Source of the DNA: a virus
DNA: 40,754 nt
Strand: one strand, 5' to 3'
IMG/VR virus record: IMGVR_UViG_3300048026_000224
Location: 1 to 40,754 of that record
Part shown: positions 2,392 through 32,245 of the stretch, piece by piece
How the letters are laid out: every line of letters begins with the position of its first letter
Position numbering within the stretch: the first letter of the stretch is position 1
Notes under the pieces: model-generated
Database searches by the model: none
What the model was told of the DNA's origin: nothing
Seen by the model: only the letters and a program-made list of their open reading frames with translations
Position numbers and translations under genes: made by a program

Positions 2392-2622
2392 TTAGATATC
2401 CTTTGCTTTTACAGCAGCTTCATAGTCGCTTCTTAAACCTTTAAGCATTTCCAGTGAAGTTATCTTCCCCTGCAAGCGGAACACTTCCAGTTCCGATCTG
2501 GCCCCCACCAACGCCCGAAGCGTCATCTGGATTTGCTCCTGCAGGTACGTCTCCAGACTGTCCCATGCTTCCTTGTTGGTCACTAGGCTGCTGACCTTCC
2601 GGGCCTGTTCCTTGTTGAGCAT
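2392..2622 (-). CDS. Small helical protein overlapping the portal gene
   Basis: This 76-residue protein is rich in charged residues and Leu with heptad-like spacing (EAWDSLETYLQEQIQ, then SELEVFRLQGKITSLEMLKG), so it is probably an all-helical or coiled-coil protein. It starts with ATG after a GGATTG site. Its first 182 bases lie inside the 3' end of the portal gene in another frame, and its stop touches the start of the next gene. The portal tail read there is a Gly/Gln/Pro/Ser-rich stretch, while this frame looks like a normal folded protein. Function is unknown; a small connector or scaffold-like part of the head is a guess from position only. Confidence 0.6.
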   Translation of the reverse strand: MLNKEQARKVSSLVTNKEAWDSLETYLQEQIQMTLRALVGARSELEVFRLQGKITSLEMLKGLRSDYEAAVKAKDI

Positions 2623-4549
2623 TCTGTGCCAATCCTTTCAACATCTCTGCAAAAATTTGCGCTTCATTTACGTCGTTTACCAAGCTATCAGGGTCGATGT
2701 CTTGAGCGATAGCTAGTTCACGCATAAGGTTAGGTATCTTAATAAACGGTGCAAGCATCGGGTTAGATACCGTCTGTAGCAAGGTTGTAAGTCTCTGGCT
2801 GCGGACTTCTTTCTGCATGACTGCAGCTACGCCGCGAGGTTTGATTTCCAAGTCACCTTCGATATCAGGGGCATCTTCGTTGAACTGCATGTTCCACTGG
2901 AAATATGATTCTCCCAAAGGTTTTAACAGTGCGTCGTCGATGTTCTTGATTACCGTCTTGAGCGACAAGCTTGCACCACCAAGAAGCATGGATAGCCCAG
3001 ATGCGGTTCGACCTGTTCCGGCTACACCAGTTTGACCGTGCATGATTGACGGAAGACCCGTTTCTTCGTCTGCAAGCTGACGGCTAATCTGATACATCTG
3101 AATGTTTTCAGGTGCCGTGTTCGGAAACTTGAGGCCGTTGATTGCTGTTCCCGTAACACCGGACTGACGACGGAAGATTTTGCCGGGAAAAATGTCCATG
3201 TTCTGACCGGGAACCAAGCTTGCTTCATCTACGTCAAATACTAGGTTGCCAGCAAGAGCTAGGTTGTCGATTGCCATCCGAACGTGACCATTCATTAGCA
3301 TCTGTGCATCTTCCATGTTTTCCGCTACGCCAACACCCCACATTTGATACGGGTTAATTTCGTACGGAAAAACCTGATATGGAATACGTGCAGGCGTAAA
3401 CGGATTTAAAACACAGCGAATTACTTCGTTACCGCAAACCCACACGTTTACCTGCACCTGATCTATTGGACCCATTGTCTGAGGCACATCTAGGCCAGCC
3501 CGATTTGCAAACTCCGCATCTAAAACGCCCCAGTATTCAAAAACCTCAAATCTAGTTTCGTTGTAGTATGCTTCAGTTTCATCTTCACGAATAGTGTCTT
3601 CGAAATACTTGTCCGTGTAGTTAGAGCCTTTTGCAATTACATCTTCAATCTTGTCCTTAAAAAAGTAAGGACTGTTGATTAGATTACGAAGCTGTTGCTT
3701 GTTCATCCGATGACGTTGAATTACGTATTCGCAATCATCGATGCTAGTTGCAGACGGATCAGGATAAAAATCCCACGCAGATACGTTTTCAATTCGAGGA
3801 ACAGTCTTTTCGTAGGGAGCGTATATACGCCCTTCCGGTGTAGTTTCCCATTTGTGAACACGCTTGTAAAAATTAAACGGTCCTTTAATAATCCCCGTAC
3901 CTAGCAAGGCTGCTTCAAATATACTACTGCGAAACTCATTCACAGCACTCGTATCTAGTAACTGATCGTGAATAACCTTTTCCATCTTTAAGGCAGCACG
4001 TTGAGCAGGAGAAATCTGCGGTTCTCCCATGAGTGCTGGTCCCGGACGGAGCGAAGCATTTTCGTATCTATCCTTAGTGCCACCCAAGTAATCCATAGAC
4101 GGACTTGCTGCCATAGCACCCGGCTCTAAGTTTCGACCGTCTCCCGGAAAACCGTAAGGGTCTTCCTGTTGAATAATGTCGTCTAAGGGGGTTTCCAAGT
4201 GAGCAAACTCCGCAATTCCTTCTGGAACCGGAGTAGACTCAACAACTAATGGAAACTTCTTATTAGCAAAAAGAATATCAATGATCTGTCCGTACGCAGC
4301 AAGAACCTTCGTTTTGGTTATCTTGATAAATACCTTAGATTTTTCAGATTCGCGATACTGTGTTGTTGAATCGTAAATACCGCGAAAATTCTTGTACGCC
4401 CTCAACCAACGCTGTTCATAGGCATAGCGTCCGTTTTCAGCGTCTTCAAACTTTTTGTTGATAAGCCCTACAAGTCCCGGAAGCTGATCTTCAACGTCGT
4501 GCAACGTTACTTGCGTGTCATCAGGTGGCTGGAGAAAATTTTCAGACAT
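2441..4549 (-). CDS. Portal (head-to-tail connector) protein
   Basis: A 702-residue protein, the size range of podovirus portals that form the dodecameric ring through which DNA is packaged and ejected. The N-terminus (RWLRAYKNFRGIYD, then KVFIKITKTKVLAAYGQ) and middle (RIENVSAWDFYPDP, then WDVLDAEF-like WGVLDAEF and QVFPYEINPYQMWGVG) are typical of portals that I recognise in marine podoviruses. The C-terminal 60 or so residues are Gly/Gln/Pro/Ser-rich and overlap the next gene in another frame. It starts with ATG; the upstream gene ends 6 bases before. It sits downstream of the terminase in the leftward packaging operon, as expected. Confidence 0.85.
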   Translation of the reverse strand: MSENFLQPPDDTQVTLHDVEDQLPGLVGLINKKFEDAENGRYAYEQRWLRAYKNFRGIYDSTTQYRESEKSKVFIKITKTKVLAAYGQIIDILFANKKFPLVVESTPVPEGIAEFAHLETPLDDIIQQEDPYGFPGDGRNLEPGAMAASPSMDYLGGTKDRYENASLRPGPALMGEPQISPAQRAALKMEKVIHDQLLDTSAVNEFRSSIFEAALLGTGIIKGPFNFYKRVHKWETTPEGRIYAPYEKTVPRIENVSAWDFYPDPSATSIDDCEYVIQRHRMNKQQLRNLINSPYFFKDKIEDVIAKGSNYTDKYFEDTIREDETEAYYNETRFEVFEYWGVLDAEFANRAGLDVPQTMGPIDQVQVNVWVCGNEVIRCVLNPFTPARIPYQVFPYEINPYQMWGVGVAENMEDAQMLMNGHVRMAIDNLALAGNLVFDVDEASLVPGQNMDIFPGKIFRRQSGVTGTAINGLKFPNTAPENIQMYQISRQLADEETGLPSIMHGQTGVAGTGRTASGLSMLLGGASLSLKTVIKNIDDALLKPLGESYFQWNMQFNEDAPDIEGDLEIKPRGVAAVMQKEVRSQRLTTLLQTVSNPMLAPFIKIPNLMRELAIAQDIDPDSLVNDVNEAQIFAEMLKGLAQNAQQGTGPEGQQPSDQQGSMGQSGDVPAGANPDDASGVGGGQIGTGSVPLAGEDNFTGNA

Positions 4550-4555
4550 TTGATT

Positions 4556-4765
4556 TTAGTAGTCGCGCTCTTCAGCCATTTTCATAACTGATGGGTCAAC
4601 GGCTTTCTTGGTCATCTTCTTTGGCATGTCTTCGGTGAGTACACCTTGCTTTGCCATTGTGTCAAACTCAAGACCTTCCCGATATAGTTTATTGCATCCG
4701 CCCATATCATCAACGCTAGTTTTGTCGCTGTTCATAATATAAGATGCACCCATATTCATGTTCAT
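4556..4765 (-). CDS. Small hypothetical protein between recombinase-like gene and portal
   Basis: A 69-residue protein starting MNMNMGASYIMNS with an excellent ribosome binding site (GGGAG, 7 bases before ATG). It is Met- and Lys-rich with a short helical basic segment (MPKKMTKKAVDPSVMKM). No family recognised. It is placed 15 bases after the recombinase-like gene and 6 bases before the portal gene, so it is co-transcribed with them and is probably a virion or assembly factor. Confidence 0.6.
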   Translation of the reverse strand: MNMNMGASYIMNSDKTSVDDMGGCNKLYREGLEFDTMAKQGVLTEDMPKKMTKKAVDPSVMKMAEERDY

Positions 4766-4780: not shown

Positions 4781-6775
4781 TTATGGTGTGTAAGAAATGA
4801 AGCCGGTTGCTTCTTTGCCTTCGCGAGCGGCTCCTCTCGCTTGGCGTAATCTTTCTGGGTTAGAAAGAAAAGAGGTAGGTACGTTTTGTACGGCATCTGG
4901 TACACGTACTGGTTCTGTAATCTGTGGTTGTGCGGCAGGAGCAGCAGCGGGGGCCTGATTGAATAGCTCTGGTTGATCTGCCATCACTCGTTCGATAGGA
5001 CGGGCCGATCCGGGATCAGCTACAGGAGAAGCCATCGATCTCCCGACTTCTATAACGTCACTAGGAGAAACCGGAAGAAACTCTGTGGCTCCTGCTGCAA
5101 CTCCTAATGGGCCAGCTACAGAACTAGGAAGTCCCAATGCTTCTGCTTGCTGTGTAAATGCGCTACGAGTCATTTCTGAAGCAATAGCAGAACCGACGTA
5201 AGGAATTGCAGCAATACCCTTCTTAACGGGTCCGGGTAGCTTCTTATAGGTGTTTTTTATGAATTCGAGAGTGCTTTGATGATTCTTAACTCTATCGGCT
5301 TCTTGCTGTGCAGCTTTACCTGCCGCTACTTCCGCCGTTGCCTCTTTTATCTTCAGGTTAGCTTCTGCGACGGCGGTTGCATTTTCTCCGCGCTTGATAG
5401 TCAAGTCGTCTGCACGATAGCCTGTTTCTTGTGCAGTTAGTCTAGATTGCTCTGTTGCCTCTGCAGTCTTTGCTGCACGAAGCTGTTCCCCTTGTGCAAT
5501 TTCTTCTGGAGTAGCAGTAGTCGGTTGAACCGGTGCTTGCGACGGAGTTGCCATCGCATCGACTTCAGGGTACTGTGCGTTGAACTCTGGTGCTAAGTCT
5601 AAGCGAAGTGCTTCGCCTAATCCTTTCGCATCTGTGGCACCGACGGCATCTGCCATCATCTTTTCGTAGGCTACTAGGATTTCACCACGTTGTTGTAAAC
5701 CACTGATATCTTCTACATCAGTATAGTATCCTGTCATAACTTTGTCAAGTAAACTTTCACCAGAGCCTTTGTGACTGATGATTTCACTCGCAAGGTCAGG
5801 ACGACCAAGTTGATTGGCAATAGCAGAAGCAGTGATACGGCGAAGAGCAGTATAACCGGATGGCTTAACTAAAAGCTTATCTAGAACATTTTGCGGAATT
5901 TTTGTAAAGACGTGCTTTTCTAAAGCTGCGCTAATCTTTCCTGTAGTCATACCCGGAAAGAGTTCGCCCGTTGCCCCTGCTGCATCGTAGCGACGGTTTA
6001 GGATTTCACGAAGAACCGGTCCCGGCGGCTTGTCTGGGCCTTTTGCCTTACGACCACCGCCAGTAGCTACTTCAGGGTCACGAGCAACGCCAGCTTCCCT
6101 GTCATAAAATGGACGAACAGGTTTAGAGCGAATGGCAAGCGCACGAGACGTACGCATTCCCGAAAGGTCTTCTCCGCGATACCCTAGCAAAGCTGCCATA
6201 ACAGCGTCTCGCGTAACAGGATCAGGGATGTCACCAATGCCCTGTAAGACCGATTGGAGGACTTCAGCAGGTATAGCACCCTTTGCAAGCTTACGGGTGC
6301 CCTTAGAGGCTCCTGTGCGGGATAGCTTCAATTCTAATACGTTATCTGCCGCTACTTTAAACGGGCGGACGATATTTTTACGAACATCTTCACTAATATT
6401 GCCTAAAGGGGTCTTAGATGCCGCTTCAAACTCCGCAAACGACGAGCCTAAGTCAACACCGTTCTTTTGAAGCTTGGCAATGTTGTTGCTGATGCCTGTT
6501 GTGTTACGAGCAGGACCTACGACTTCACGTGAAAACGTTTTTTCAAACTTGCTGTAGAAATCTTTTGTCTCATCTAACTCTGCAAGGATAGGTTCGTCTG
6601 GTACACCGTCGTTGTACATCTTTGCAATGAACGAATCGGCAACAGTATGGCTTCCTGAATCGATACGAGCACGTACTTCTTCTAACGATGGAATTTCACC
6701 GTCGGAAAACAAAGTCCGCTGCAAATTCATAAAGGAATCTACAACGGTTTTTTCTTGCTTGGTTAGTTCAGCCAT
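4781..6775 (-). CDS. Large protein with tyrosine-recombinase-like domain
   Basis: A 664-residue protein. Residues about 185-352 read like the catalytic domain of tyrosine recombinases: AALLGYRGEDLSGMR (Arg200 as the first catalytic Arg), GELFPGMTTGKISAAL (the LFP block), YTALRRITASAIAN (Arg312; the usual His of HxxR is Thr309), ISHKGSG (His335) and GYY (Tyr350/351). Spacing from Arg312 to His335 is 23, as in XerD; Arg200 to Arg312 is 112. Candidate lysines lie at 218, 243 and 245. After residue 410 comes an Ala/Gln/Glu-rich helical stretch, then a short hydrophobic segment (GIAAIPYVGSAIASEM). ATG 6775 follows the terminase stop by 3 bases. It is odd to find such a domain between terminase and portal. 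It may be an active integrase, a DNA-ejection protein derived from one, or a decayed enzyme; Thr for His argues for altered chemistry. Confidence 0.6.
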   Translation of the reverse strand: MAELTKQEKTVVDSFMNLQRTLFSDGEIPSLEEVRARIDSGSHTVADSFIAKMYNDGVPDEPILAELDETKDFYSKFEKTFSREVVGPARNTTGISNNIAKLQKNGVDLGSSFAEFEAASKTPLGNISEDVRKNIVRPFKVAADNVLELKLSRTGASKGTRKLAKGAIPAEVLQSVLQGIGDIPDPVTRDAVMAALLGYRGEDLSGMRTSRALAIRSKPVRPFYDREAGVARDPEVATGGGRKAKGPDKPPGPVLREILNRRYDAAGATGELFPGMTTGKISAALEKHVFTKIPQNVLDKLLVKPSGYTALRRITASAIANQLGRPDLASEIISHKGSGESLLDKVMTGYYTDVEDISGLQQRGEILVAYEKMMADAVGATDAKGLGEALRLDLAPEFNAQYPEVDAMATPSQAPVQPTTATPEEIAQGEQLRAAKTAEATEQSRLTAQETGYRADDLTIKRGENATAVAEANLKIKEATAEVAAGKAAQQEADRVKNHQSTLEFIKNTYKKLPGPVKKGIAAIPYVGSAIASEMTRSAFTQQAEALGLPSSVAGPLGVAAGATEFLPVSPSDVIEVGRSMASPVADPGSARPIERVMADQPELFNQAPAAAPAAQPQITEPVRVPDAVQNVPTSFLSNPERLRQARGAAREGKEATGFISYTP

Positions 6776-6778
6776 TGA

Positions 6779-8458
6779 TTAGTATCCAAATACTTCGTCT
6801 TGAACCTTGTAGACGTGGTTCTTGATTGCGCCTAGTTGTTGGTGTATAGATGCGTAGCCACTCATACGTGTCATTACCATGTAACGAAGGGCATCGTAGG
6901 CGTGATCTTCTGCCTTCGTGTCCACGTCTTCGCTGTTAGTTTTTGAAAGGGGAATGCCTGCAAGTTGTTTTACTGTGTGTTGGCACGTAGAAAATATACG
7001 TAAACGGGGTTCCTGAGAGTACGGATCATCCGCAAGTCTCCGATGAACTTCCATCTTTCCTTGAATGCGGTTTCGATCTGAAGGAGTCCAACGAACGCCC
7101 TGTCTCATCATAACTTCCGCAATAGACGGCCCAAAGCCTGTCTTATTCCAGCAGGAAGAATCGAGTACGGTATAGTGAGGTAATGGGTCAAGCTCTTCTG
7201 CTTCTAATATTTTATCGGCTAATTGCTCGGCTGTCAAGTGCTTTGCATACAATTCACGATAAACCCAAATATTATTATCCCAATCAATAGCACCCCAAAG
7301 AACGCACGACGGCGACGCATAGCCGTAGTCGGCGGCACGTATACGGGGCCAGTTTGTTGGAAGTTCATAAGGTTCGACCACATGTCTCGCTCGTGTAAAT
7401 TCAGGGAAGGCCGCTCCCTCTGCCACATCCCAATCCCCTTCGAGAAGTCTCTTCCGTTCGACCTCTGGGAGCGAACGCAACATGGCTTCGTATTGTCCGT
7501 CTGCCATGAGGTGGGGATTATCTGTCAACCGTGCTGGTACAAACTTTCGGAAGAACAGCGGCTGACCTGCCTTTTCGTGACCGGCAGGCCACACAAACGG
7601 CTTCATAGTGTCTATGTCGTATGCGGGGAAGGCGATATTCTCTGTGCGAGAATCGATATACATCTTCTTTACCCACCATCCACCGACACCGCCGGGGTTG
7701 GCTGTACAACGCATATTCAAAGATTTCTGTAGTTCGGGATCGGTAGAGCGTAAGCGGGAACGTAGATAGTCCCAGACGTACGGTGTTGGATATTGGGTTA
7801 TTTCGTCGATACCTATCCAGTTGAACGCCTGTCCTTGAAAACGGGTAACGTCCTTGTCTCTGTCTAGGTAAGTAAACCAAATTGTGGCACCAGAGGGAAA
7901 TACCCAAGTGGATTTTGATTCGCGGAACTTGGCTCCGGGAAACGCCTTTGTATATAGTTGACGTGATTTATCGATTAGTTCTGTTAGTTCGTCGAGGGTA
8001 CGCCGGAGAAGAAGACCCCGATGATTGGGGTTATGGCAATACCGTAGGGGATCAGCAAGTAGAGCGAACGACTTACCACCACCAGCGGCTCCGCCGTAAA
8101 GAACGTCTTGCTCTGACGCTGCAAGAAACTCTTCTTGTGGTCCAGCGTTTGGTTGAAATACAACTTCGGCATCTCCAACAAGATCAGAAACGGGTTCGGG
8201 CAGAACGGCGAGATCTCCCATGTCAATGACGGATGATCCCTTTCCAGTGATTGCTTTTTCGACTTTTCCAATTGTTTTTTCGAGTTCACGTGCGTGGCTT
8301 CTTCGTGCTTCTGCTTGTTTCGTTGTCTTTTCGGCTTTTTTCTTTGCAGTACGCAGTCGCTTTTGCGCTGCGCGACGAGCACGTTCAGCAGTCGAAAGTT
8401 GGTAGGTACGCTTGGGTTTATCAGTCTTTTTCTGCTGATCTATTGGCTTTTCTTCCAC
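6779..8458 (-). CDS. terL: Terminase large subunit
   Basis: The packaging motor ATPase and nuclease. With GTG 8458 as start, the order is: a Lys/Arg-rich helical extension (about residues 10-75), Walker A YGGAAGGGKSF near 121-131, Walker B WIGIDEI near 214-220, the coupling motif MRCTANPGG near 249, and nuclease aspartates in RAADYGYASP (near 377), YTVLDSS (near 433) and DHAYDALRYMV near the C-terminus. GTG 8458 is preferred because GGAAGC lies 7 bases upstream; an in-frame TTG at 8479 with a poor site would add 7 residues. The gene overlaps the end of the upstream 105-residue gene by 38 bases. It works with the small subunit gene two positions upstream. Confidence 0.93.
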   Translation of the reverse strand: MEEKPIDQQKKTDKPKRTYQLSTAERARRAAQKRLRTAKKKAEKTTKQAEARRSHARELEKTIGKVEKAITGKGSSVIDMGDLAVLPEPVSDLVGDAEVVFQPNAGPQEEFLAASEQDVLYGGAAGGGKSFALLADPLRYCHNPNHRGLLLRRTLDELTELIDKSRQLYTKAFPGAKFRESKSTWVFPSGATIWFTYLDRDKDVTRFQGQAFNWIGIDEITQYPTPYVWDYLRSRLRSTDPELQKSLNMRCTANPGGVGGWWVKKMYIDSRTENIAFPAYDIDTMKPFVWPAGHEKAGQPLFFRKFVPARLTDNPHLMADGQYEAMLRSLPEVERKRLLEGDWDVAEGAAFPEFTRARHVVEPYELPTNWPRIRAADYGYASPSCVLWGAIDWDNNIWVYRELYAKHLTAEQLADKILEAEELDPLPHYTVLDSSCWNKTGFGPSIAEVMMRQGVRWTPSDRNRIQGKMEVHRRLADDPYSQEPRLRIFSTCQHTVKQLAGIPLSKTNSEDVDTKAEDHAYDALRYMVMTRMSGYASIHQQLGAIKNHVYKVQDEVFGY

Positions 8459-8738
8459 GATGCTTCCTTGCTTGTCCAATTAAAATGCTCAGTTCTTTAG
8501 AAAACTCTGTCCCTGTCATTCCTTTTGGTACGGGAATAGCGTCGCCACGACGCATAGCTACTTCAATAGCTTCTTTTTCAGATAGTTTACTCAAGCCTTC
8601 TTTTTCACGACGGATGGTCGGAGCAATGTATTCTTTGCCGTCTTGCTCGAAGCTAACGGTACGAACAGTTTCGTTTGCATAGGTTGTCGGTGTAGACGGG
8701 TCCATAGCCCGACGAAGCCATGAAGGACGTTCAGACAT
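8421..8738 (-). CDS. Conserved phage protein between terminase subunits
   Basis: A 105-residue protein. It contains DGKEYIAPTIRREKEG followed by a helix and RRGDAIPVPKGM, then TEFSKELSILIGQARK. I recall small phage proteins with this EYxxPTIR ... GD.IPVP layout near terminase and lysis genes, but no function is known to me. ATG 8738 has GAGG nine bases upstream and overlaps the end of the small terminase gene by 8 bases, and its own end overlaps the large terminase start, so translation of all three is probably coupled. Confidence 0.65.
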   Translation of the reverse strand: MSERPSWLRRAMDPSTPTTYANETVRTVSFEQDGKEYIAPTIRREKEGLSKLSEKEAIEVAMRRGDAIPVPKGMTGTEFSKELSILIGQARKHRGRKANRSAEKD

Positions 8739-9132
8739 CGATAATTACCTCTTTCTTAGGCGGTAACAAGACTACGCCGTGAACGGCAGTTACATTGTGA
8801 TTGATTTGTTCTTGCTTTGCCACTCCTACGCGATTGAGGAGCGATTCAGCAGCTTTGAGACGAAGATCGTCTCCGCGTTCTGGGGCGGGGTTGTCTATAG
8901 TAGAGATTACACGGTTAGCAGCCTTCAATGCGTTGGTTGCAAGGACCTGCTTCGTGCGTTCGATGATTTCATCGGATAGGGTAGACTTGAGCCACGCTGC
9001 AGAGCCTCTAGAGTATCCTGCGTCTATGGCTGCTGCGGTGACCTGACCACCATTTTCAAATAGCAACTCTAGGAACTGTTCCTGTTGAGGGGTCAATTCC
9101 TTCTTTTTGTGTGTCTGGGGTAGGAGATTCAT
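8731..9132 (-). CDS. terS: Terminase small subunit
   Basis: A 133-residue protein. The N-terminal half has a helix-turn-helix typical of small terminases that recognise packaging sites: LTPQQEQFLELLFENGG, then QVTAAAIDAGYSRGSAA, which resembles the Terminase_2 type start. A helical oligomerisation segment follows (RTKQVLATNALKAANRVIS, then DDLRLKAAESLLNRVG), and the C-terminus ends in a beta-like tail with PPKKEVIIDV. ATG 9132 was chosen; an in-frame GTG at 9156 would add 8 residues. The start lies inside the upstream secreted-protein gene, overlapping it by 77 bases. Confidence 0.8.
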   Translation of the reverse strand: MNLLPQTHKKKELTPQQEQFLELLFENGGQVTAAAIDAGYSRGSAAWLKSTLSDEIIERTKQVLATNALKAANRVISTIDNPAPERGDDLRLKAAESLLNRVGVAKQEQINHNVTAVHGVVLLPPKKEVIIDV

Positions 9133-9331
9133 CGCTTTGTCCCGAAACCGACGCACATTTCCACTTGATGTTGACTTCGAAGAGGTTAGTTGTACGTACG
9201 AACTCTCCCATTTCGTCTACACGAGCCTTACAGGCTTCTTTTGTCTCGTAGGGGCCGCGTGTATCTGTCAATTCATGGCATGTGTCGGGCGAAACCGACA
9301 GGCAAACAAGTAGTGCTGCTTCGTATAACAT
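9056..9331 (-). CDS. Small exported Cys-rich protein, first gene of late operon
   Basis: A 91-residue protein beginning MLYEAALLVCLSVSPDTC, a short hydrophobic start that could be a signal peptide or lipoprotein-like leader, followed by further cysteines (ETKEACKARVDEM and IKWKCASVSG), which suggests disulphides in the periplasm. The C-terminal 25 residues are Pro/Thr/Ser/Gly-rich and coincide with the overlapping terminase start. The AGGAAATCG site before ATG 9331 is strong. It is the first gene after the late promoter near 9447-9475. Export hints at a lysis or superinfection role, but this is inference only. Confidence 0.65.
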   Translation of the reverse strand: MLYEAALLVCLSVSPDTCHELTDTRGPYETKEACKARVDEMGEFVRTTNLFEVNIKWKCASVSGQSDESPTPDTQKEGIDPSTGTVPRVAI

Positions 9332-9665: not shown

Positions 9666-10041
9666 GTCTAATTGCTGGGAGCACCCCCCAACACGTCGGT
9701 TTTATTCCCGTATCGATAACCCTACAGGATAAAATTGCTGGCGACATTGCATACAGGTACCGGTACCCCCCCAGTGGCCCTTGCCACCCCTATAGAGGCT
9801 CCCGCATTGCCAAGCCCGAGGTTTCCAGCCTGACACCTAACCCTGAGTAAAGCCCTGCCGGATATCCCCGCGCCTATATCGCGTCAATGCGTGTGTTTTT
9901 TTGCCCTGCCTGACAGATTATCCATGCCGGTTATTCTTTAGGGGAGATGTTGAGAGCAATATTCCTAGCAATCCCCTACATAACCCCCGCCCGATTTATC
10001 CCGCAATTACAAGCGCAACGATATAGTTCTATGGTATAGGC
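9666..10041. other. GC-rich noncoding stretch
   Basis: No convincing gene on either strand. It contains a perfect 12-bp palindrome GGTACCGGTACC (9756-9767), several C-runs, one GTCGGTTT copy at 9695-9702, and a TTATCCATG (9919-9927) that only loosely resembles a DnaA box. It lies between the small RNA and the end of the early leftward block, and could hold an origin, a packaging site or an attachment site, but nothing in it proves any of these. Confidence 0.4.
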
Positions 10042-10074
10042 AAAAAAAGAACCCGCCGGACTAGCCAAGCGGGT
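10042..10074 (-). terminator. Rho-independent terminator closing the early leftward block
   Basis: On the minus strand ACCCGC and GCGGGT (plus-strand positions 10069-10074 and 10051-10056) form a stem with a 12-base loop, followed by TCTTTTTTT (10048-10042). It lies just downstream of the 76-residue gene at 10101-10331 and shields the late control region. Confidence 0.8.
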
Positions 10075-10100
10075 CAAGGTTAGGGAGGAATGCGCGTCGG

Positions 10101-10331
10101 TTACTCGTCGGTTTTGATTACCTTCAACTGTTCAGCGTATGCTTTAACGGTGTTGTTTCGATCCAAATCCCAGTCGGGGATGCCTAGCAAATCGGCTGTT
10201 TGTTTGAGGTGGTTCATCATCGTATTGAGATGCTGCAACTGCTTTGCAAACATGACTAGCTGTTTACGATCCAAAACAACAAGATCATCAGCGTTGGTCT
10301 CAGGGGTGATATTCAAAGCTTTATTAGCCAT
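10101..10331 (-). CDS. Small helical hypothetical protein
   Basis: A 76-residue protein starting MANKALNITPETNADD. The middle is amphipathic helix (QLVMFAKQLQHLNTMMNHLK), the rest is acidic. No family recognised. AAGGAA lies nine bases before ATG 10331. It has its own promoter (10388-10416) and ends just before a terminator, so it can be expressed as a single-gene unit. The 3' end contains a GTCGGTTT copy. Confidence 0.6.
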   Translation of the reverse strand: MANKALNITPETNADDLVVLDRKQLVMFAKQLQHLNTMMNHLKQTADLLGIPDWDLDRNNTVKAYAEQLKVIKTDE

Positions 10332-18117: not shown

Positions 18118-18278
18118 GCAAGAAGAAAAGAGAAGTAGTAGACAGACACTTGGGATGTCCTAGTTGGCCTAACTGCGATTTAGCCCCTTTAGGTTGTATC
18201 CTAGAGATGGGTAGAGATGTAGAGTGGTATGGTTATAAAGACCCAAAACCAACTAAAAAGAAAGAAGAAGACGAATGA
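18114..18278 (+). CDS. 54-residue Cys-containing protein in replication operon
   Basis: ATG 18114 overlaps the HNH stop (ATGA) and its TGA overlaps the exonuclease start (ATGA), which strongly supports translation. The protein begins MSKKKREVVDRHLGCPSWPN and continues CDLAPLGC: three cysteines spaced 6 and 7 apart, then a Lys/Glu-rich tail. It may bind metal but is too small to classify. Confidence 0.6.
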   Translation: MSKKKREVVDRHLGCPSWPNCDLAPLGCILEMGRDVEWYGYKDPKPTKKKEEDE

Positions 18279-18856
18279 ACATTCTGACCTTCGACGTGGA
18301 AACAACCCACATACACAAGGATAGCGGCGGCACAACTGCCCTACCATACTTTGGAAACAGACTGGTTTCTATCGGGTACAAGTGGCTGGGCTGTACCGTC
18401 CATTATCAGTGTTACTCCCACGCAGACAGGGAAGCAACCGACTCCGCCGCAGCAACATTTCAGCGGGAACTTGACACGGCTGACGTTGTTGTGGGACAAA
18501 ACATAAAGTTTGATCTATCGTGGATCAGAGAGTGCGGATTCAAGTATGAAGGATACGTCTATGATACGATGGTTGCGGAATATATTTTATCGAAAGCCCA
18601 GCGTTGGCCTCTTGGACTTGCTGCTCTTGCAGAAAAGTATGACGTTACCCGCAAGGAGAAAGACCTCGTTGCGCCGTATCTCAAAGACGGCAAGACCTTT
18701 TACGACATACCGTGGGAGATAGTAGCAGAGTACGGTAAAGCTGACGTACTTGCTACTGAAGAGATTGCACTTAAACAGCTAGAAGCCTTTGGCACTACCT
18801 TTGAGGAACTATTCAATGACCAACAACTTAATACCGACGTTAAGGCTTTCGCTTGA
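18275..18856 (+). CDS. 3'-5' exonuclease half of a split family A DNA polymerase
   Basis: A 193-residue DnaQ-fold exonuclease with all catalytic motifs: FDVETT (Asp7, Glu9), GQNIKFD (Asn76, Asp80) and YGKAD (Tyr153, Asp157). In family A polymerases of T7 type this is the N-terminal proofreading domain. Here it stops 41 bases after the polymerase start. The homologous part seems to end near residue 181 (FEELF); the last 12 residues (NDQQLNTDVKAFA) are out-of-frame reading of the polymerase N-terminus. Either a natural split or a +1 frameshift (real or a sequencing error). Confidence 0.8.
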   Translation: MNILTFDVETTHIHKDSGGTTALPYFGNRLVSIGYKWLGCTVHYQCYSHADREATDSAAATFQRELDTADVVVGQNIKFDLSWIRECGFKYEGYVYDTMVAEYILSKAQRWPLGLAALAEKYDVTRKEKDLVAPYLKDGKTFYDIPWEIVAEYGKADVLATEEIALKQLEAFGTTFEELFNDQQLNTDVKAFA

Positions 18857-20357
18857 GATGACTGACTCGCTTGCTCGTATAGAGCAAAACGGATTGAAGA
18901 TAAATCTAGAAACCCTAGACGAGATTGAACGAGAGTACCAAGAAGAAATGGATACCCTAGAGGTTCGCCTAAACCAATTGGCAAGGGAAGCTATGGGCGA
19001 CACGCCAGTTAACCTGTCTAGTCCAGATGATCGTAGTGTTCTTCTGTACTCACGCCGCGTTAAAGATAAACCAACGTGGTCACGGATATTTAACTTGGGT
19101 CACGAAAAGCGCGGAACTACTATGAAGCCGAAGCTTCGCACCCGCATGAAACGCGGCGAGTTCAACTCTGCGGTTCGTAACATGACAGAAGTAGTACAGA
19201 AGACACGAGGTCACCAGTGTACCGACTGTCGTGGTGAAGGGCGTGTCAGTCCTCGTAAGAAAGATGGCACACTGGGCAAAGCAATCCGTATCTGCAAGCC
19301 GTGCAGCGGAACAGGAGTTATCTACGTTCCTACCGGCGAGGTTGCTGGCTTCAAGCTGGTTCCACGAGACCCGATGGACACGGCATCCGCTGGTTTTAAA
19401 ACCGACAAGGTTACCTTAGAAAACCGACAGACCGACTTGTCTGGTGATGCTTACGAGTTTGTTGTTGCCTACGTGCGTTACAATGCGCTTCGTACTTACC
19501 TATCAACATTTGTAGAAGGGATGAAAAATAATGTTGACGAGAATGGTTTTATCCACCCAGAATTTATGCAATGCGTTACGGCGACAGGTCGCCTTTCGAG
19601 TCGCAATCCTAACTTTCAGAATATGCCACGTGGAAATACCTTCGCTATACGGAAGGTTGTCGAGAGTCGCTTTGAGGGTGGTTCGATACTTGAGGGGGAT
19701 TACTCCCAGCTAGAGTTTAGGGTAGCAGGGTTTCTTGCAAAGGATGGTCAAGCGTACATAGATGTGGAGAAAGGTACGGATGTTCACAGTTATACTGCCA
19801 GTATTATCGGGTGCAGCCGACAAGAAGCAAAGGCACATACCTTCAAACCGCTATACGGCGGTGTCACCGGAACCGACTCTCAACAACGCTACTACAGAGC
19901 CTTTAAGGAAAAGTATGAAGGTGTCACCGCTTGGCACGAACAACTCCAGCGAGAGGCCGTCCAGAAGCGATTAATCACCCTTCCAAGTGGTAGGCAGTAT
20001 GCCTTCCCAGATGCACGTTGGACTAAGTGGGGTACGGCTACAAATCGTACCGCAATATGTAACTATCCGGTGCAGGGATTTGCTACTGCTGACCTGCTTC
20101 CGATTGCTCTTGTCAAGCTGCAAAATCTATTCCTTGACAGAAAACTTATTTCCGTGATATGCAATACGGTACACGACTCTATCGTGGTTGATGTACACCC
20201 TAGCGAAAAAGATATTTGTATCAAACTGATGACAGAAGCAATGATGTCGTTGCCTGAAGAAACAATCAAAAGATATAATGTGGCCTATGACATGCCGGTA
20301 GGAATAGAATTAAAAATAGGAAAAAACTGGCTTGACTTAACAGAGGTAGACCTGTAG
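18816..20357 (+). CDS. Family A DNA polymerase, polymerase part, with DnaJ-like zinc insert
   Basis: A 513-residue polymerase from ATG 18816 (GAGG nine bases upstream; the frame is open 27 bases earlier). Motif A is EGDYSQLEFRVAGF (Asp295 region), motif B is RQEAKAHTFKPLYGG (Arg335, Lys339, Phe343, Tyr347), motif C is NTVHDSIVVDV (His453, Asp454). Phe343 is the equivalent of E. coli Phe762. Residues about 135-167 carry two CxxCxGxG motifs (CTDCRGEG and CKPCSGTG), a DnaJ-like zinc finger before the palm. I recall this feature in phage HMO-2011. The N-terminus (LIPTLRLSLEMTD) matches the exonuclease-to-polymerase junction of fused enzymes. Confidence 0.9.
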   Translation: MTNNLIPTLRLSLEMTDSLARIEQNGLKINLETLDEIEREYQEEMDTLEVRLNQLAREAMGDTPVNLSSPDDRSVLLYSRRVKDKPTWSRIFNLGHEKRGTTMKPKLRTRMKRGEFNSAVRNMTEVVQKTRGHQCTDCRGEGRVSPRKKDGTLGKAIRICKPCSGTGVIYVPTGEVAGFKLVPRDPMDTASAGFKTDKVTLENRQTDLSGDAYEFVVAYVRYNALRTYLSTFVEGMKNNVDENGFIHPEFMQCVTATGRLSSRNPNFQNMPRGNTFAIRKVVESRFEGGSILEGDYSQLEFRVAGFLAKDGQAYIDVEKGTDVHSYTASIIGCSRQEAKAHTFKPLYGGVTGTDSQQRYYRAFKEKYEGVTAWHEQLQREAVQKRLITLPSGRQYAFPDARWTKWGTATNRTAICNYPVQGFATADLLPIALVKLQNLFLDRKLISVICNTVHDSIVVDVHPSEKDICIKLMTEAMMSLPEETIKRYNVAYDMPVGIELKIGKNWLDLTEVDL

Positions 20358-27406: not shown

Positions 27407-30400
27407 TTATGGTGAGAGTCCAAAGTAATTCATTGTGGGGTTGTAAACAAATTCATGCCCAAAGTCACTGGTAACTTTTACAGGGTCTTTAGCTGTTTCG
27501 CGATAGTTATCGAAACGTTCTGTAGCGATAACCAGCAATTCAAGTAGCTGACGATCCTTGTCCATAGGTAGCGGCTTTCCTGTATCTATCATCTCCATCA
27601 ACAGGGAGCCTACCTTCGGATCGGTCAGGGCTGCAGTCAAAAGCGACATGTTCTTCTGCCTCATCTGCTGCAAGACTGCTTCTGTACCAACGTACCTAAA
27701 GCTAACCACACCACGATTGACAGCGTAAAAGCGACTGATGTAGCTCTCTACAGAGAATTTGCGAGGGATGCCCGATATGTTCGTGCGTCCTGCAGACTCT
27801 GCAGCTTCGTTCGCTGTGAAGCTTATGATGCTTCTGTAGGTATCGTAGGTTTTATCTCCAAGTACTTCTCTTACAACTTCTGCTGTACTAGGGTCGTTGA
27901 ATCCCATGAATTGCTTCAGGGATTCAATATCCAAGTCCACATTCGGAACCATCACGGTTGGATCAGACGGGTCTATGGTGTATCGGCCTGTAGGGTTGAA
28001 AGCCTTACGATCAATCTCTTGGACCAGAAGTGATTTGATTATTTCGTTGGTTTCTTCTTCGCTTCGCTTTAAGGACTTGAGATGCTTCTTTAGGTCGTTC
28101 AAGCGTCCTACGCCACCGGATATCAAAACCGACCCGACACTACCGGAGTCTAACACCCCTTGAGAGTATTGTCTTAGGAACTGTTTGCTTTCGCTAATAC
28201 CCTGCTGTATCTTCTTGGCTTCTCGTACGACACGAGCCTTTTCCCCCTTTGAAGCATTCTGTAGCTTTTTCATTCCCGCTTCAAAGTACTCAGGATCGAC
28301 GCTGTTCTTTCCAAAGTCAGGAAACACATCTGTCATAACCCTATCTAAGTCTAGGAGACGCACCTCAGTACCCTCGTCGGTTACGGCTATGAAGGTATCT
28401 TGTAGGCTGTTCATTTTTCTGCGAAGGTCGTTGAAGTCGATAGGCTTTCCGCTCGTCACAGTTTCGGTGAGCCATTCGCGACTACGTGCCTCTAGGATTG
28501 CACGAGTAGCCTGACCATTTTCACTGTTCAATTGTATGCGATAGTTTCCGTTTGCATCTGCGTCACCTATTGTTTCGGAAAGGGAGCGTGTAAACTTTGT
28601 TTTGTCTACGTCCTTCATGTCGGCAATTTTATTAAAGTCTAACCAGCCTACAGGAGCATTTTTACCATAGTCTATACCTAACGGATAGTCTGAAGAAACA
28701 CCGGTAGGTAAGCGAGCGTCCTTATTTTTCCACCCCAGCCAATTACTTACATTTTCATCGTTGTAGAACCGACGCTTGTACTCTGTCCAACGAGCCTTTC
28801 CTTCGGTTAGGACAGTTTGGGTAGAACTTAATTTTGTTCCGTCAGGTAAAACTTTATCTACGCGAGTGACTTGATCCGATGGATCTAAGGCAATAAACAA
28901 CTGACCTACAGAAACTCGTTGACCTGTTTCTAGCTGAACTTCAAAGGAATCCATGAGTCCTTCTGCAATGTTTTGAACGTTGTCTATTCTCATTTTTGCT
29001 GTAGAGTCTTGGGTCTTGAAGCTTATTTGATTCAAGGCATCAGACATCTCTTTAGCTTGCTGGAAGGAGATAGGAAGAACCCCGATATCATCTCCAGTCG
29101 ATTGCAGATCTTTTCTGAGTAGCTGTGTAACTAACAAATCTCGTGGGATACGTCTGTCATTTATCAGTTTCATCGTAGCGGGATCGTTTGCTTGACGGGC
29201 AGCAGCCAACGCACCATCAACAATCTCAACTGCATCTTTTCCTGATCGTTGGGCAATATCCAAGATAAAGGCTCCTGCCGCTTCATCCAAGAATGCAAAC
29301 ATCTTGCCGCTTGTTGAGCGAGACATCGTTTTACCAGACATCTCTAGAAGCAAGGTAGTTCCTTCTGCAGTGCCCAGTACATCAAACATGCTATCTAGCA
29401 CGGGACCGGCATCTGTCGTAGCTTCGCCTACAACTACTGACCCGTCTGCCGTACGGAACAAAGCGTTGTCTAGCTGACGAAACGGTGCAGCAGCAATTTC
29501 TCGCTCGCGTACGTTTCTACTTTCAAGTAACGCTGCAAGAGCATCCCCTGATGTTTGAATGTCACGTGCTTTTGCTGGTTCACGTCCCGGACGGATAATT
29601 GTTCCATCAGGAAGAATCTTGTTAACCTGCTTGTTTACGTCGCCCTGCGTCGGAAGAATACGAGCAATCTGAGTTGCTTTATCTTTGATGGCTCCGGCTA
29701 TACCATCTTGTGTTCTAACAACTTCGTTTTGAATTGCTAAAACACTACCTGCATTTATCCTAGAAATATTGTGCTTTGTAAGACTGTCGAGTGCACTACT
29801 TAGTTCAGTTGCAGACGCTTCATCTAAATGATCGTATATGTCGTCTGACCCTAGAATCATGCCCTTTACGCTGGTTTCGTAGCTTCTTCCGATAACTTCT
29901 AAGTCATCTGCTAGTTGAGCGGTTGTGCCATCTGCATAGGTTACGGCAGCTTCGACGGTATCGTACAGTTTCTTTATGGCGTTTCCTTCGATGTCCACGC
30001 CTTCCGTACGGGCAAGAGTTTGCATAACAGTACGAAGTTCAGAAACAAACTTCTGTTGAGTGAGTAGGTTTGTATGTAAAGCTCGAGTTTTAGGGCTAAA
30101 CGATGCAACTTGAGGGCCGTGTAAGTCGATTGCAGAACCTTCTTCTAGGGTTTGTAGAAGGGACAAGCCTAGTATTCGAGACACAGGACGATCTAAAACC
30201 TCTGGATTCACACCAGCCGCTACAAGCTCTTGCTTGAGTCCGTTGAAGTACTTTACTCTCGTCCGCAGTGCTTCTTGAAAGTCTGGGTCAAAGTTTTTCA
30301 TGTTGGTGAGAACGAGATCAGCAAGGTCCAAGTCTTTTCCTGTTATGTTTTCAAGGTCAAACTTTTTTAATAGCTTTTTTGCATCTTTGCCGCCTTTGAC

Positions 30401-32245
30401 AAGACCGTACGCGATTCCGCCTAGTGCTCCTATAAACTCTCCCATCATAGGATCGCCACCGTAGATTTCAAAGGCTTGATTGGCTGTTGCAGCACCAATT
30501 ATAACGTAGGCATCTTGGACGTTCGACTCTCTGATAAATTTAGGTGTTTCAGACCTCACCACAGTCTTTCGGAGGTCTGCCTTTGTAACCTCAATTTTTC
30601 TAGCTACTTCATCCAAACGTCTTGCTTCATCTGGGTTCAAGTCCCTGCCTGCTAGTTTTGCACGATTGATAATACCATTCTTCTGATTGTGCAGGTTTTT
30701 GTAGTACTGAGACATGTTACGCACTTCGATGCGATTAGATGCAATCTGTGCCGCATCTGTTAGTTCCATACCGTTCTTGAACCGACTAGATGTACGGATA
30801 CCGTTGACTGATGCGTATATCTTTGCTGGGATGTTTAGTGGCGTAGAGCCAAGAAGCTTGATATCCTTTGCTTTGGTTAAATCAACGGGAAAGCTGTACG
30901 TCCCAATACCGACGTTAACAGTATTCTTTCTCATTTTTTGAAACGCTACGATTAACTCTTCCTCGTTTGCATCAGGAAACTTCTTGCGATACCGTGCTTC
31001 GAAATCACCGAAGTATTCCATCTCCTTTTTACCAGCCTGTACCTTTCTCAAGGTAGCAAGCTTGGTAGGTCCGGCTACCTCGATTGCAGTCGCTGCAGCT
31101 TGGGTTCCAAAGCCGGAAAACCGACGTGAAATAGATTCCGCTACGTGGTATGGCACATCCAAGTTTAACTGCGTGTATCTGTCCTGAATCAAAGCAGGCA
31201 TACTAGGAATGAAGGTGCTCAACCACTTCTCACGATCAGTTGAGTCTGATAGGTTGTAGTCACCGACTTTCAAGCCCTCTGATAGTGCTCCGAAGGCTTC
31301 GCCTACGAGGTATGCTCCAGCCATGAGAGGAAATTTAGCAACTTCATTGGTGATACCGACGAGTTTGGACGGATCACCAAAACCGACTCCCCCGAACTGA
31401 GGAAGGTTTACGCTGTGTAAGATGATGCCTGCACGAGTACGTTGACTTTTCACACCTTGATTGATAAGGAAGTTATCGAACTGTTTGGCAAAGATAGCAC
31501 GGTTAGTATCCGCATCGTAACCCATATTTAACATGTAGCGTGATCTAGCTTCGTCACTTACAAACGGAATACCGACGAGCTTCTTGTCGATGTCTTCCAA
31601 GACCTTTTCGTACTTTTCATCGTACACGGCGGTCATGTAGCGTATGTCAACCTCTTGCCTTGCGTCATCGTCAACGTAGTACCCTAGTTTTGTTCCTTGA
31701 ATTTCATCCACCAGTTTTTGACGTGCTTCGAGGGTATCTTCTCCTTCTAAAAAGGCACTGAAAGCAAACGTTTCAGGATTACCACTTTCAGTTAAGCGTT
31801 TAGTCGTTACGTAGTCGGCACTCATCAGGTCTTCATCAGCTAAGTCAGAATCTTTGACAGAAATGATTGGCGTTAGTAATTCGGGATTTTCGATTATGCG
31901 ACGACGCTTAGTGATGGCTTGTGCACCTAGAAATGGATCGCCATATTCTATCTCTACTTTCGATGGGTCCATAGTCAAGGCAGGCTCTGGGGAAAGATAC
32001 CTTCCCGATTTTCCAAGCATAGGCGGACGTTCAAACCCCTCTGGTCCGTAACCACCAAGCACATTCACGATGGGAAAATCCTCGACCACCCCTTCTGGAA
32101 GCTTTTTTCCAATGCCTGTTGCTTCTGTCTGCGTATTTGTCATGCTCATAGGACTCAACGCTGCAGCAGCAGGCGAAAGTATTGTTTCAGCGAGACCAAG
32201 CGTTGACTTGGGTAGCTTATCGAAAATAGAGTATCCTTCAGCCAT
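27407..32245 (-). CDS. Very large virion protein (1612 residues), probable ejection protein
   Basis: No catalytic domain recognised. The protein is mostly helical with long charged stretches, and a hydrophobic patch around residues 290-320 (KFPLMAGAYLVGEAFGAL). Size, position and helical nature resemble the internal virion proteins that T7-like phages eject to form a channel through the envelope (T7 gp16 is 1318 residues). It pairs with the 966-residue gene directly upstream (1 base gap). Evidence is positional and by size only. The window contains no obvious transglycosylase motif in it. Confidence 0.55.
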   Translation of the reverse strand: MAEGYSIFDKLPKSTLGLAETILSPAAAALSPMSMTNTQTEATGIGKKLPEGVVEDFPIVNVLGGYGPEGFERPPMLGKSGRYLSPEPALTMDPSKVEIEYGDPFLGAQAITKRRRIIENPELLTPIISVKDSDLADEDLMSADYVTTKRLTESGNPETFAFSAFLEGEDTLEARQKLVDEIQGTKLGYYVDDDARQEVDIRYMTAVYDEKYEKVLEDIDKKLVGIPFVSDEARSRYMLNMGYDADTNRAIFAKQFDNFLINQGVKSQRTRAGIILHSVNLPQFGGVGFGDPSKLVGITNEVAKFPLMAGAYLVGEAFGALSEGLKVGDYNLSDSTDREKWLSTFIPSMPALIQDRYTQLNLDVPYHVAESISRRFSGFGTQAAATAIEVAGPTKLATLRKVQAGKKEMEYFGDFEARYRKKFPDANEEELIVAFQKMRKNTVNVGIGTYSFPVDLTKAKDIKLLGSTPLNIPAKIYASVNGIRTSSRFKNGMELTDAAQIASNRIEVRNMSQYYKNLHNQKNGIINRAKLAGRDLNPDEARRLDEVARKIEVTKADLRKTVVRSETPKFIRESNVQDAYVIIGAATANQAFEIYGGDPMMGEFIGALGGIAYGLVKGGKDAKKLLKKFDLENITGKDLDLADLVLTNMKNFDPDFQEALRTRVKYFNGLKQELVAAGVNPEVLDRPVSRILGLSLLQTLEEGSAIDLHGPQVASFSPKTRALHTNLLTQQKFVSELRTVMQTLARTEGVDIEGNAIKKLYDTVEAAVTYADGTTAQLADDLEVIGRSYETSVKGMILGSDDIYDHLDEASATELSSALDSLTKHNISRINAGSVLAIQNEVVRTQDGIAGAIKDKATQIARILPTQGDVNKQVNKILPDGTIIRPGREPAKARDIQTSGDALAALLESRNVREREIAAAPFRQLDNALFRTADGSVVVGEATTDAGPVLDSMFDVLGTAEGTTLLLEMSGKTMSRSTSGKMFAFLDEAAGAFILDIAQRSGKDAVEIVDGALAAARQANDPATMKLINDRRIPRDLLVTQLLRKDLQSTGDDIGVLPISFQQAKEMSDALNQISFKTQDSTAKMRIDNVQNIAEGLMDSFEVQLETGQRVSVGQLFIALDPSDQVTRVDKVLPDGTKLSSTQTVLTEGKARWTEYKRRFYNDENVSNWLGWKNKDARLPTGVSSDYPLGIDYGKNAPVGWLDFNKIADMKDVDKTKFTRSLSETIGDADANGNYRIQLNSENGQATRAILEARSREWLTETVTSGKPIDFNDLRRKMNSLQDTFIAVTDEGTEVRLLDLDRVMTDVFPDFGKNSVDPEYFEAGMKKLQNASKGEKARVVREAKKIQQGISESKQFLRQYSQGVLDSGSVGSVLISGGVGRLNDLKKHLKSLKRSEEETNEIIKSLLVQEIDRKAFNPTGRYTIDPSDPTVMVPNVDLDIESLKQFMGFNDPSTAEVVREVLGDKTYDTYRSIISFTANEAAESAGRTNISGIPRKFSVESYISRFYAVNRGVVSFRYVGTEAVLQQMRQKNMSLLTAALTDPKVGSLLMEMIDTGKPLPMDKDRQLLELLVIATERFDNYRETAKDPVKVTSDFGHEFVYNPTMNYFGLSP

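Follow-up and report, generated by a model that had tools for sequence, protein, structure and literature searches.

A divergent tyrosine recombinase encoded between the terminase and portal genes of HMO-2011-type marine podoviruses, and its possible carriage in the virion

A 664-aa protein encoded between the terminase and portal genes of a marine podovirus contains a divergent tyrosine recombinase, the catalytic part of which is exchanged between near-identical phages. The fold, the catalytic set, the purifying selection, the gene order (terminase large subunit (TerL), recombinase, 69-aa ORF, portal) and the cassette exchange are established by the data presented below. The best reading of them is that the protein is a domesticated recombinase, which is probably delivered together with the DNA. 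The full proposal, to which we give somewhat less than an even chance, is that a divergent recombinase is made late, docked through its tail and carried in the particle, and acts on the incoming DNA in place of an early integrase. The original prediction had left the choice between a virion-carried recombinase, a structural protein recruited from an integrase, and a remnant; the first of these is favoured, on the indirect evidence of genomic context, shared tails and a common C-terminal motif.

The window, i.e. the whole stretch of 40,754 nucleotides that was analysed, is assigned from its genes to the HMO-2011-type marine podovirus lineage. Its PolA (ORF 18789–20357) carries two CxxCxGxG motifs (CTDCRGEG...CKPCSGTG) in a partial DnaJ insert, as in HMO-2011, and a PolA with this insert, together with HMO-2011-like TerL and portal, is the definition of the group used here (PMC6918029). 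The exonuclease part of PolA is a separate ORF (18275–18856). TerL and portal are 54% and 49% identical, respectively, to those of HMO-2011. The genes relevant to this study are all on the minus strand, and consist of the terminase small subunit (8731–9156, from a profile search), TerL (6779–8479, from profile searches and homology), the recombinase gene (4781–6775, from the ORF and its structure match), a conserved 69-aa ORF (4556–4765) which served as the anchor of our survey, an SU10-type portal protein (2441–4549, from profile searches) and a late protein with a C-terminal cell-wall-hydrolase match (154–2391, from a profile search). The interval between TerL and the 69-aa ORF that precedes the portal is hereafter called the slot. 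The slot gene of the window is a complete ORF of 664 aa with an ATG start, its start codon lying 3 nt past the TerL stop, and 15 nt separate its end from the 69-aa ORF, which is followed by the portal gene. Elsewhere in the window, two large late proteins (27407–32245, 1612 aa, and 32247–35147, 966 aa) are candidate ejection proteins; neither gave a credible match in Pfam, nor did the 1612-aa protein in PHROGs, which were searched with that protein only. The ORF at 38523–40649 codes for a tail-fibre-like 708-aa protein made of short repeats (NTTxxYNTAxGxxAL).

In the AlphaFold2 model, the slot protein starts with an all-helical N-terminal region (residues 1–150; 6326–6775), a candidate core-binding (CB)-like domain into which part of the PDB alignments reach, from residue ~28–49 (6en2, 1z1g, 2a3v). 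The catalytic domain of predicted tyrosine-recombinase fold (residues 160–360; 5696–6298; VIA-align match to 5vfz) is referred to as the core. A long helix, likely a coiled coil (residues 423–510; 5246–5509), joins the core to the C-terminal extension, or tail (residues 511–664; 4784–5245), which contains a hydrophobic Gly/Ala-rich segment and ends in ...GFISYTP.

The presence of recombinase boxes around Arg200, Arg312, His335 and the pair Tyr350/351 was part of the original prediction, and a check of the codons places them at exactly these residues: R200 within LGYRGEDLSGMR, R312 within YTALRRITASA, H335 within IISHKG and Y350/Y351 within TGYYTDVE. K243 and D203 had been missed and are added here. 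Box I (6167–6178) holds R200 (6176–6178) and D203 (6167–6169), the latter being the Asp/Glu position three residues after Arg I. K243 (6047–6049) is the candidate catalytic lysine of the beta2-beta3 loop, box II (5840–5851) has T309 in place of His along with R312 (5840–5842), H335 (5771–5773) is the third catalytic basic position, and Y351 (5723–5725) is the candidate nucleophile. When the window protein was aligned with 46 homologues (core identity 34–94%), R200 and K243 were invariant in 46/46 sequences and R312, H335 and Y351 in 47/47, while D203 was kept in 45/46. As few as 20 of the 201 columns in residues 160–360 are invariant, yet the catalytic residues all are, and the motif set is therefore not a matter of chance. 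As for the tyrosine pair, only its second member held up: Y350 varies (Tyr in 26, Phe in 19 and His in 2 sequences) and Y351 is fixed, which makes Y351 the nucleophile candidate. The predicted replacement of the HxxR histidine by threonine was confirmed as a property of the family (Thr in 45 and Ser in 2 of 47 sequences); among the catalytic positions of tyrosine recombinases, this one tolerates the most variation. The His-to-Tyr gap is indeed long, with 16 residues. Purifying selection on the core is strong (dN/dS 0.07–0.10), and the tail is less constrained (0.24–0.55). The window protein is likely to be catalytically active.

The PF00589 profile matched neither the window protein nor any of 17 close homologues, and direct comparison of the window protein with Pfam, PHROG and PDB profiles gave nothing credible. 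For the window protein taken alone this profile check is negative, but the structural match and the slot homologues weigh more. An AlphaFold2 model of residues 1–405 was built from 42 sequences (mean pLDDT 80, pTM 0.70), and the core model was compared with the PDB using VIA-align. All 34 entries with Z≥5 have the tyrosine-recombinase/TopoIB fold, the best being 5vfz, the integrase of phage Brujita (Z 9.0, rmsd 3.6, 156 aa aligned), with 3nkh (7.8), XerA 5hxy (7.5), the Tn1549 integrase (7.3), lambda Int (6.8) and two structures of SroF (9rgl, 6.9; 9rd5, 6.3) among the others. Below the fold matches, Z falls to 3.3 (CBF3) and then to noise. A Z of up to 9 is weak by itself, and the fold call is drawn from the uniformity of the match list and the drop that follows it. 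The same kind of proteins head the PDB list when the whole-protein model is aligned separately. Foldseek returned no significant hit with either model (none at E≤0.001 for the core model), although recombinases were top-ranked for the core model; the poor performance of the full-length model is due to its disordered tail. The tyrosine segment (342–357) and the K loop (237–245) are modelled with low confidence, so the predicted active-site geometry is tentative. According to the model, it is near certain that residues ~160–360 have the tyrosine-recombinase fold, and the domain represents a new branch within this known superfamily.

Loci were gathered from IMG/VR using the slot protein and the neighbouring 69-aa ORF as queries. 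Each of the 216 loci that contain both TerL and the 69-aa ORF has its slot filled by one ORF of 450–800 aa, which in nearly all cases begins 2–7 nt from the last TerL codon; as some of these loci are overlapping cuts from a single contig, the 147 distinct slot proteins are the safer count. They sort into seven core types that do not resemble one another but all have tyrosine-recombinase motifs; CL0 is that of the window. Relatives in the slot do match known profiles. For CL1 (the L042/L043 type), 22/36 members match PF00589 at E≤1 (best 3e-5), and matches were also obtained to PHROG_216 (4.5e-6) and to the 3nkh integrase (E 7e-5). For CL2 to CL5, 7/21 members match PF00589 (best 6e-6) and 6/21 match PHROG_1 (best 4e-9), while CL6, with textbook-like boxes (TGLRNPD / RDLR / LGHS / YY), matches PF00589 with an E of 1e-3; the PF00589 matches of CL1, CL3 (L186), CL4 and CL6 are graded as sub-threshold. 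Profile comparison ties CL0 to CL1 (76.6% probability, E 2e-5), CL1 to CL3 (87.8%), and CL2, CL4 and CL5 to one another (96–98%), with decoys reaching at most 1.3%. Together with the fold and the motif conservation, these profile matches and links between families bear out the original prediction of a tyrosine-recombinase-like domain in the late packaging operon.

The core types differ in what they retain of the active site, with counts that depend on the alignments. Arg I, Arg II, His and Tyr are all present in CL0, CL4, CL5 and CL6; CL2 has all of these except a correctly spaced Tyr, and CL3 has Arg at the His position. CL1 is degenerate, with Arg II gone in 14/50 members, His replaced in all of them and Tyr gone in 19/50. 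The HxxR position varies in other slot types too, and the 16-residue His-to-Tyr spacing is also found in CL1 (where Arg replaces His) and CL5. In the slot proteins of six loci (L162, L166, L167, L173, L176 and L180), box I is retained and Arg II, His and Tyr are all lost, and this subtype is apparently non-catalytic. Since part of CL1 lacks catalytic residues and is still found in the slot, activity is not required in every lineage: the slot looks to demand a recombinase fold in all of them, and catalysis in most but not all. A structural protein recruited from an integrase, as had been suggested, would fit the one slot subtype which lost its catalytic residues.

That the slot gene is a decaying remnant, or an assembly accident without function, has next to no chance of being right. 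The missing Pfam match of the window protein and the degenerate subtype could be read in this way, but the ORF is intact in 216/216 loci, and for the window lineage the low dN/dS of the core and the fixed catalytic positions refute the remnant reading of the original prediction. More weight is due to the possibility, unlikely in our opinion, that the protein binds DNA through a recombinase fold and does not recombine it, acting either as a regulator (as do MrpR and SroF) or as an internal organiser of the DNA, with its catalytic residues retained for DNA binding. The structural matches to SroF (9rgl, 9rd5), the precedent of MrpR (PMC10516654) and the persistence in the slot of some CL1 proteins without Arg II, His and Tyr agree with this. 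However, the catalytic positions of the window type are all fixed over the range of 34–94% core identity, while MrpR keeps 3/7, and CL4, CL5 and CL6 likewise retain the R/R/H/Y set.

Phages with ~97–99% identical flanks can hold unrelated cores. Between loci L025 (CL0) and L040 (CL2), the tail is 98%, the portal 97% and the core 23% identical; between L170 (CL1) and L169 (CL4), the portal is 99%, the 69-aa ORF 100% and the core 2% identical. In 6/6 such pairs the DNA homology breaks off only a few bases from the start codon of the slot gene, returning inside the tail or near its end, and the flanks are 95–98.5% identical right to the edge of the cassette. The core is exchanged as a cassette while the flanks and part of the tail stay. 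The same tail types turn up behind different cores (ATGFISYTP in CL0 and CL3, SFLN in CL0 and CL2, GFLSR in CL1 and CL5), and the correlation between tail and portal across all pairs is moderate (0.42). The majority of slot proteins (105/147) terminate in [GDNSE]-[FY]-[LIMV]-[STN] plus up to four residues, a motif that is found elsewhere in 5/78 homologues of the late hydrolase protein and in 0/546 other ORFs; having been defined after looking, the motif gives a distribution which is to be taken as a lead. The late protein at 154–2391, the C-terminal end of which is the cell-wall-hydrolase match in the window, and its homologues (L083, L184, L208, L214 and L222) have a conserved middle and differing C-terminal ends, some of which end in a GGFI[SN]/SFLN motif like that of the slot proteins.

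The exchange also bears on the alternative of an active recombinase linked to packaging, which would resolve multimers or concatemers or process genome ends inside the producing cell and not be carried in the virion. The own site of such an enzyme should be swapped with the core, yet the flanks are near-identical up to the cassette, and relatives with adjacent TerL and portal package their genome without a slot protein. We regard this alternative as rather unlikely, while recognising that the tight coupling of the gene to TerL (3 nt here) and portal, the intact catalytic set and the Xer-type enzymes among the best structural matches are in its favour.

Upstream of their replication genes, HMO-2011-type isolates typically encode a canonical integrase (PMC6918029, PMC8528129), and that of CRP-3 has been shown to integrate into tRNA-Met (PMC6918029). 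In HMO-2011, CRP-1, CRP-2, CRP-3, CRP-212, CRP-235 and CRP-738, the early integrase is present and TerL adjoins portal; none of the integrase-positive relatives sampled (8/8) has a slot recombinase. Phage ctYwJ313 (L274) has an integrase, and its TerL-portal slot is filled by an HNH-like 219-aa ORF (6029–6688). In 15 slot contigs (39.6–54 kb), PF00589 gave no match elsewhere than in the slot. The mutual exclusion gives a Fisher value of 2e-6 with kinship ignored, which overstates the evidence as many slot contigs are incomplete and the phages are related. HTVC103P, HTVC115P, HTVC033P and CRP-13 have neither gene. The slot recombinase seems to stand in for the early integrase of typical HMO-2011-type phages. 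Two other candidates for the same place were discarded: the large ORF of Rhizobium phage RHph_N3_19 shows no recombinase motifs by eye, and phage phiM6 has an SGNH hydrolase there. No relative was found among isolated phages by tblastn with the slot types tried. Searches that reach close relatives only gave no prophage relative in 84,980 genomes, and neither a slot protein nor a TerL relative in bacterial genomes. In line with the original prediction, no attachment site or attP candidate lies beside the slot gene, whose flanking gaps are 3 nt and 15 nt, and an Rfam/tRNA scan of the window gave no tRNA or att-like tRNA piece. The same window holds a sub-threshold Rfam match to the suhB/mmgR sRNA (10036–10102, minus strand; 28.4 bits, gathering 41).

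An ordinary integrase that was relocated among the late genes and works only once the cell expresses it, with a tail unrelated to virions, would account for the apparent mutual exclusion with the early integrase. Swapping the core would then redirect integration to another site, as happens when temperate phages exchange integrases, and flanks that are not co-swapped are expected with a host target site. Late expression would however mean that the enzyme is made when integration is useless, the gene has no attP candidate beside it, the window lacks a tRNA, and the searches reaching close relatives turned up no prophage. A long tail, shared though the core is swapped, has to our knowledge no precedent among integrases. 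We consider a relocated integrase quite improbable.

In the virion-carried scenario that we favour, the slot recombinase would be made late, from the operon of terminase and portal, and its C-terminal tail would dock onto a conserved component (portal, terminase or capsid), a step suggested by the sharing of tails and by synteny. It would then exit with the particle and enter the new cell with the DNA. There, ahead of any phage gene expression, cleavage by Tyr351 could serve to circularise the arriving genome or to join it to the host chromosome. Because flanks are unchanged during core swaps, the enzyme's target would lie in the host or within the cassette itself. Speaking against the scenario are the weaker constraint on the tail than on the core, the only moderate tail-portal correlation, the CL1 members without catalytic residues, and the failure to find an attachment site beside the gene or, in searches reaching close relatives, a prophage. 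The most specific version of it, in which a widespread group of marine phages packages an active, cassette-swapped recombinase, holds it by the tail at the portal or packaging apparatus and injects it instead of using a post-entry integrase, is put forward tentatively and is on balance doubtful. In that version, diversifying replacement of the core (at least seven types) would give new DNA specificities or an escape from host interference, with the docking tail left in place.

If virion carriage is true, some abundant marine phages bring a DNA-joining enzyme along rather than express it after infection, and the choice between lysis and lysogeny, or genome circularisation, would have to be understood differently in HMO-2011-type phages. 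Even without it, the slot is a natural experiment in which a recombinase turns into a structural or regulatory part: the recombinase fold is always there, in active and apparently dead versions, and is swapped between near-identical phages. The slot also yields at least seven families of divergent recombinases, mostly missed by standard Pfam annotation, that can serve as a test set. The open-licence PMC literature gave no description of a recombinase at the TerL-portal position or in virions. An architecture of recombinase, coiled coil and tail was not found described there, nor was the combination of a fixed place in the packaging operon, core exchange and apparent replacement of the early integrase.

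With the known tyrosine recombinases (PF00589; Xer, lambda Int, Brujita Int, Tn1549 Int), the window protein shares the fold of residues ~160–360, the R, D, K, R, H and Y at the expected places and a helical N-terminal region. It differs from the canonical ones in having Thr/Ser for the box II His and in being undetected by PF00589, and from usual integrases in its extension of ~260 residues (coiled coil and tail) and in its location between TerL and portal. In lambda Int, the nucleophile of which we take to be Y342, the His-Tyr gap is 9 against 16 in the window protein. The third basic residue of lambda Int is H333 (PMC10516654). The early integrases of HMO-2011-type phages belong to the same superfamily and phage group as the slot recombinase; unlike it, they are 292–375 aa long, have a canonical box II / GH and lie upstream of the replication genes, and profile comparison gave no link between them and the window type. 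Polyvalent proteins (Iyer et al. 2017, PMC5512222) are large, multi-part proteins encoded among virion genes, and are presumed to be packaged and then injected. Those of phages with a terminase and portal resemble the slot protein in size, multi-part build and gene location, although the words "recombinase" and "integrase" do not occur in the text of PMC5512222 and no polyvalent-protein domain was detected in the slot protein. MrpR and SroF, from SPbeta-group phages, are the precedent for a recombinase fold in a phage role other than that of an integrase, and SroF is among the structural matches of the window protein. MrpR can no longer recombine DNA, yet its Tyr is still required for DNA binding (PMC10516654). 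It keeps 3/7 catalytic residues and is a lysogeny repressor, whereas the window protein keeps 6/7 and is encoded in the late operon.
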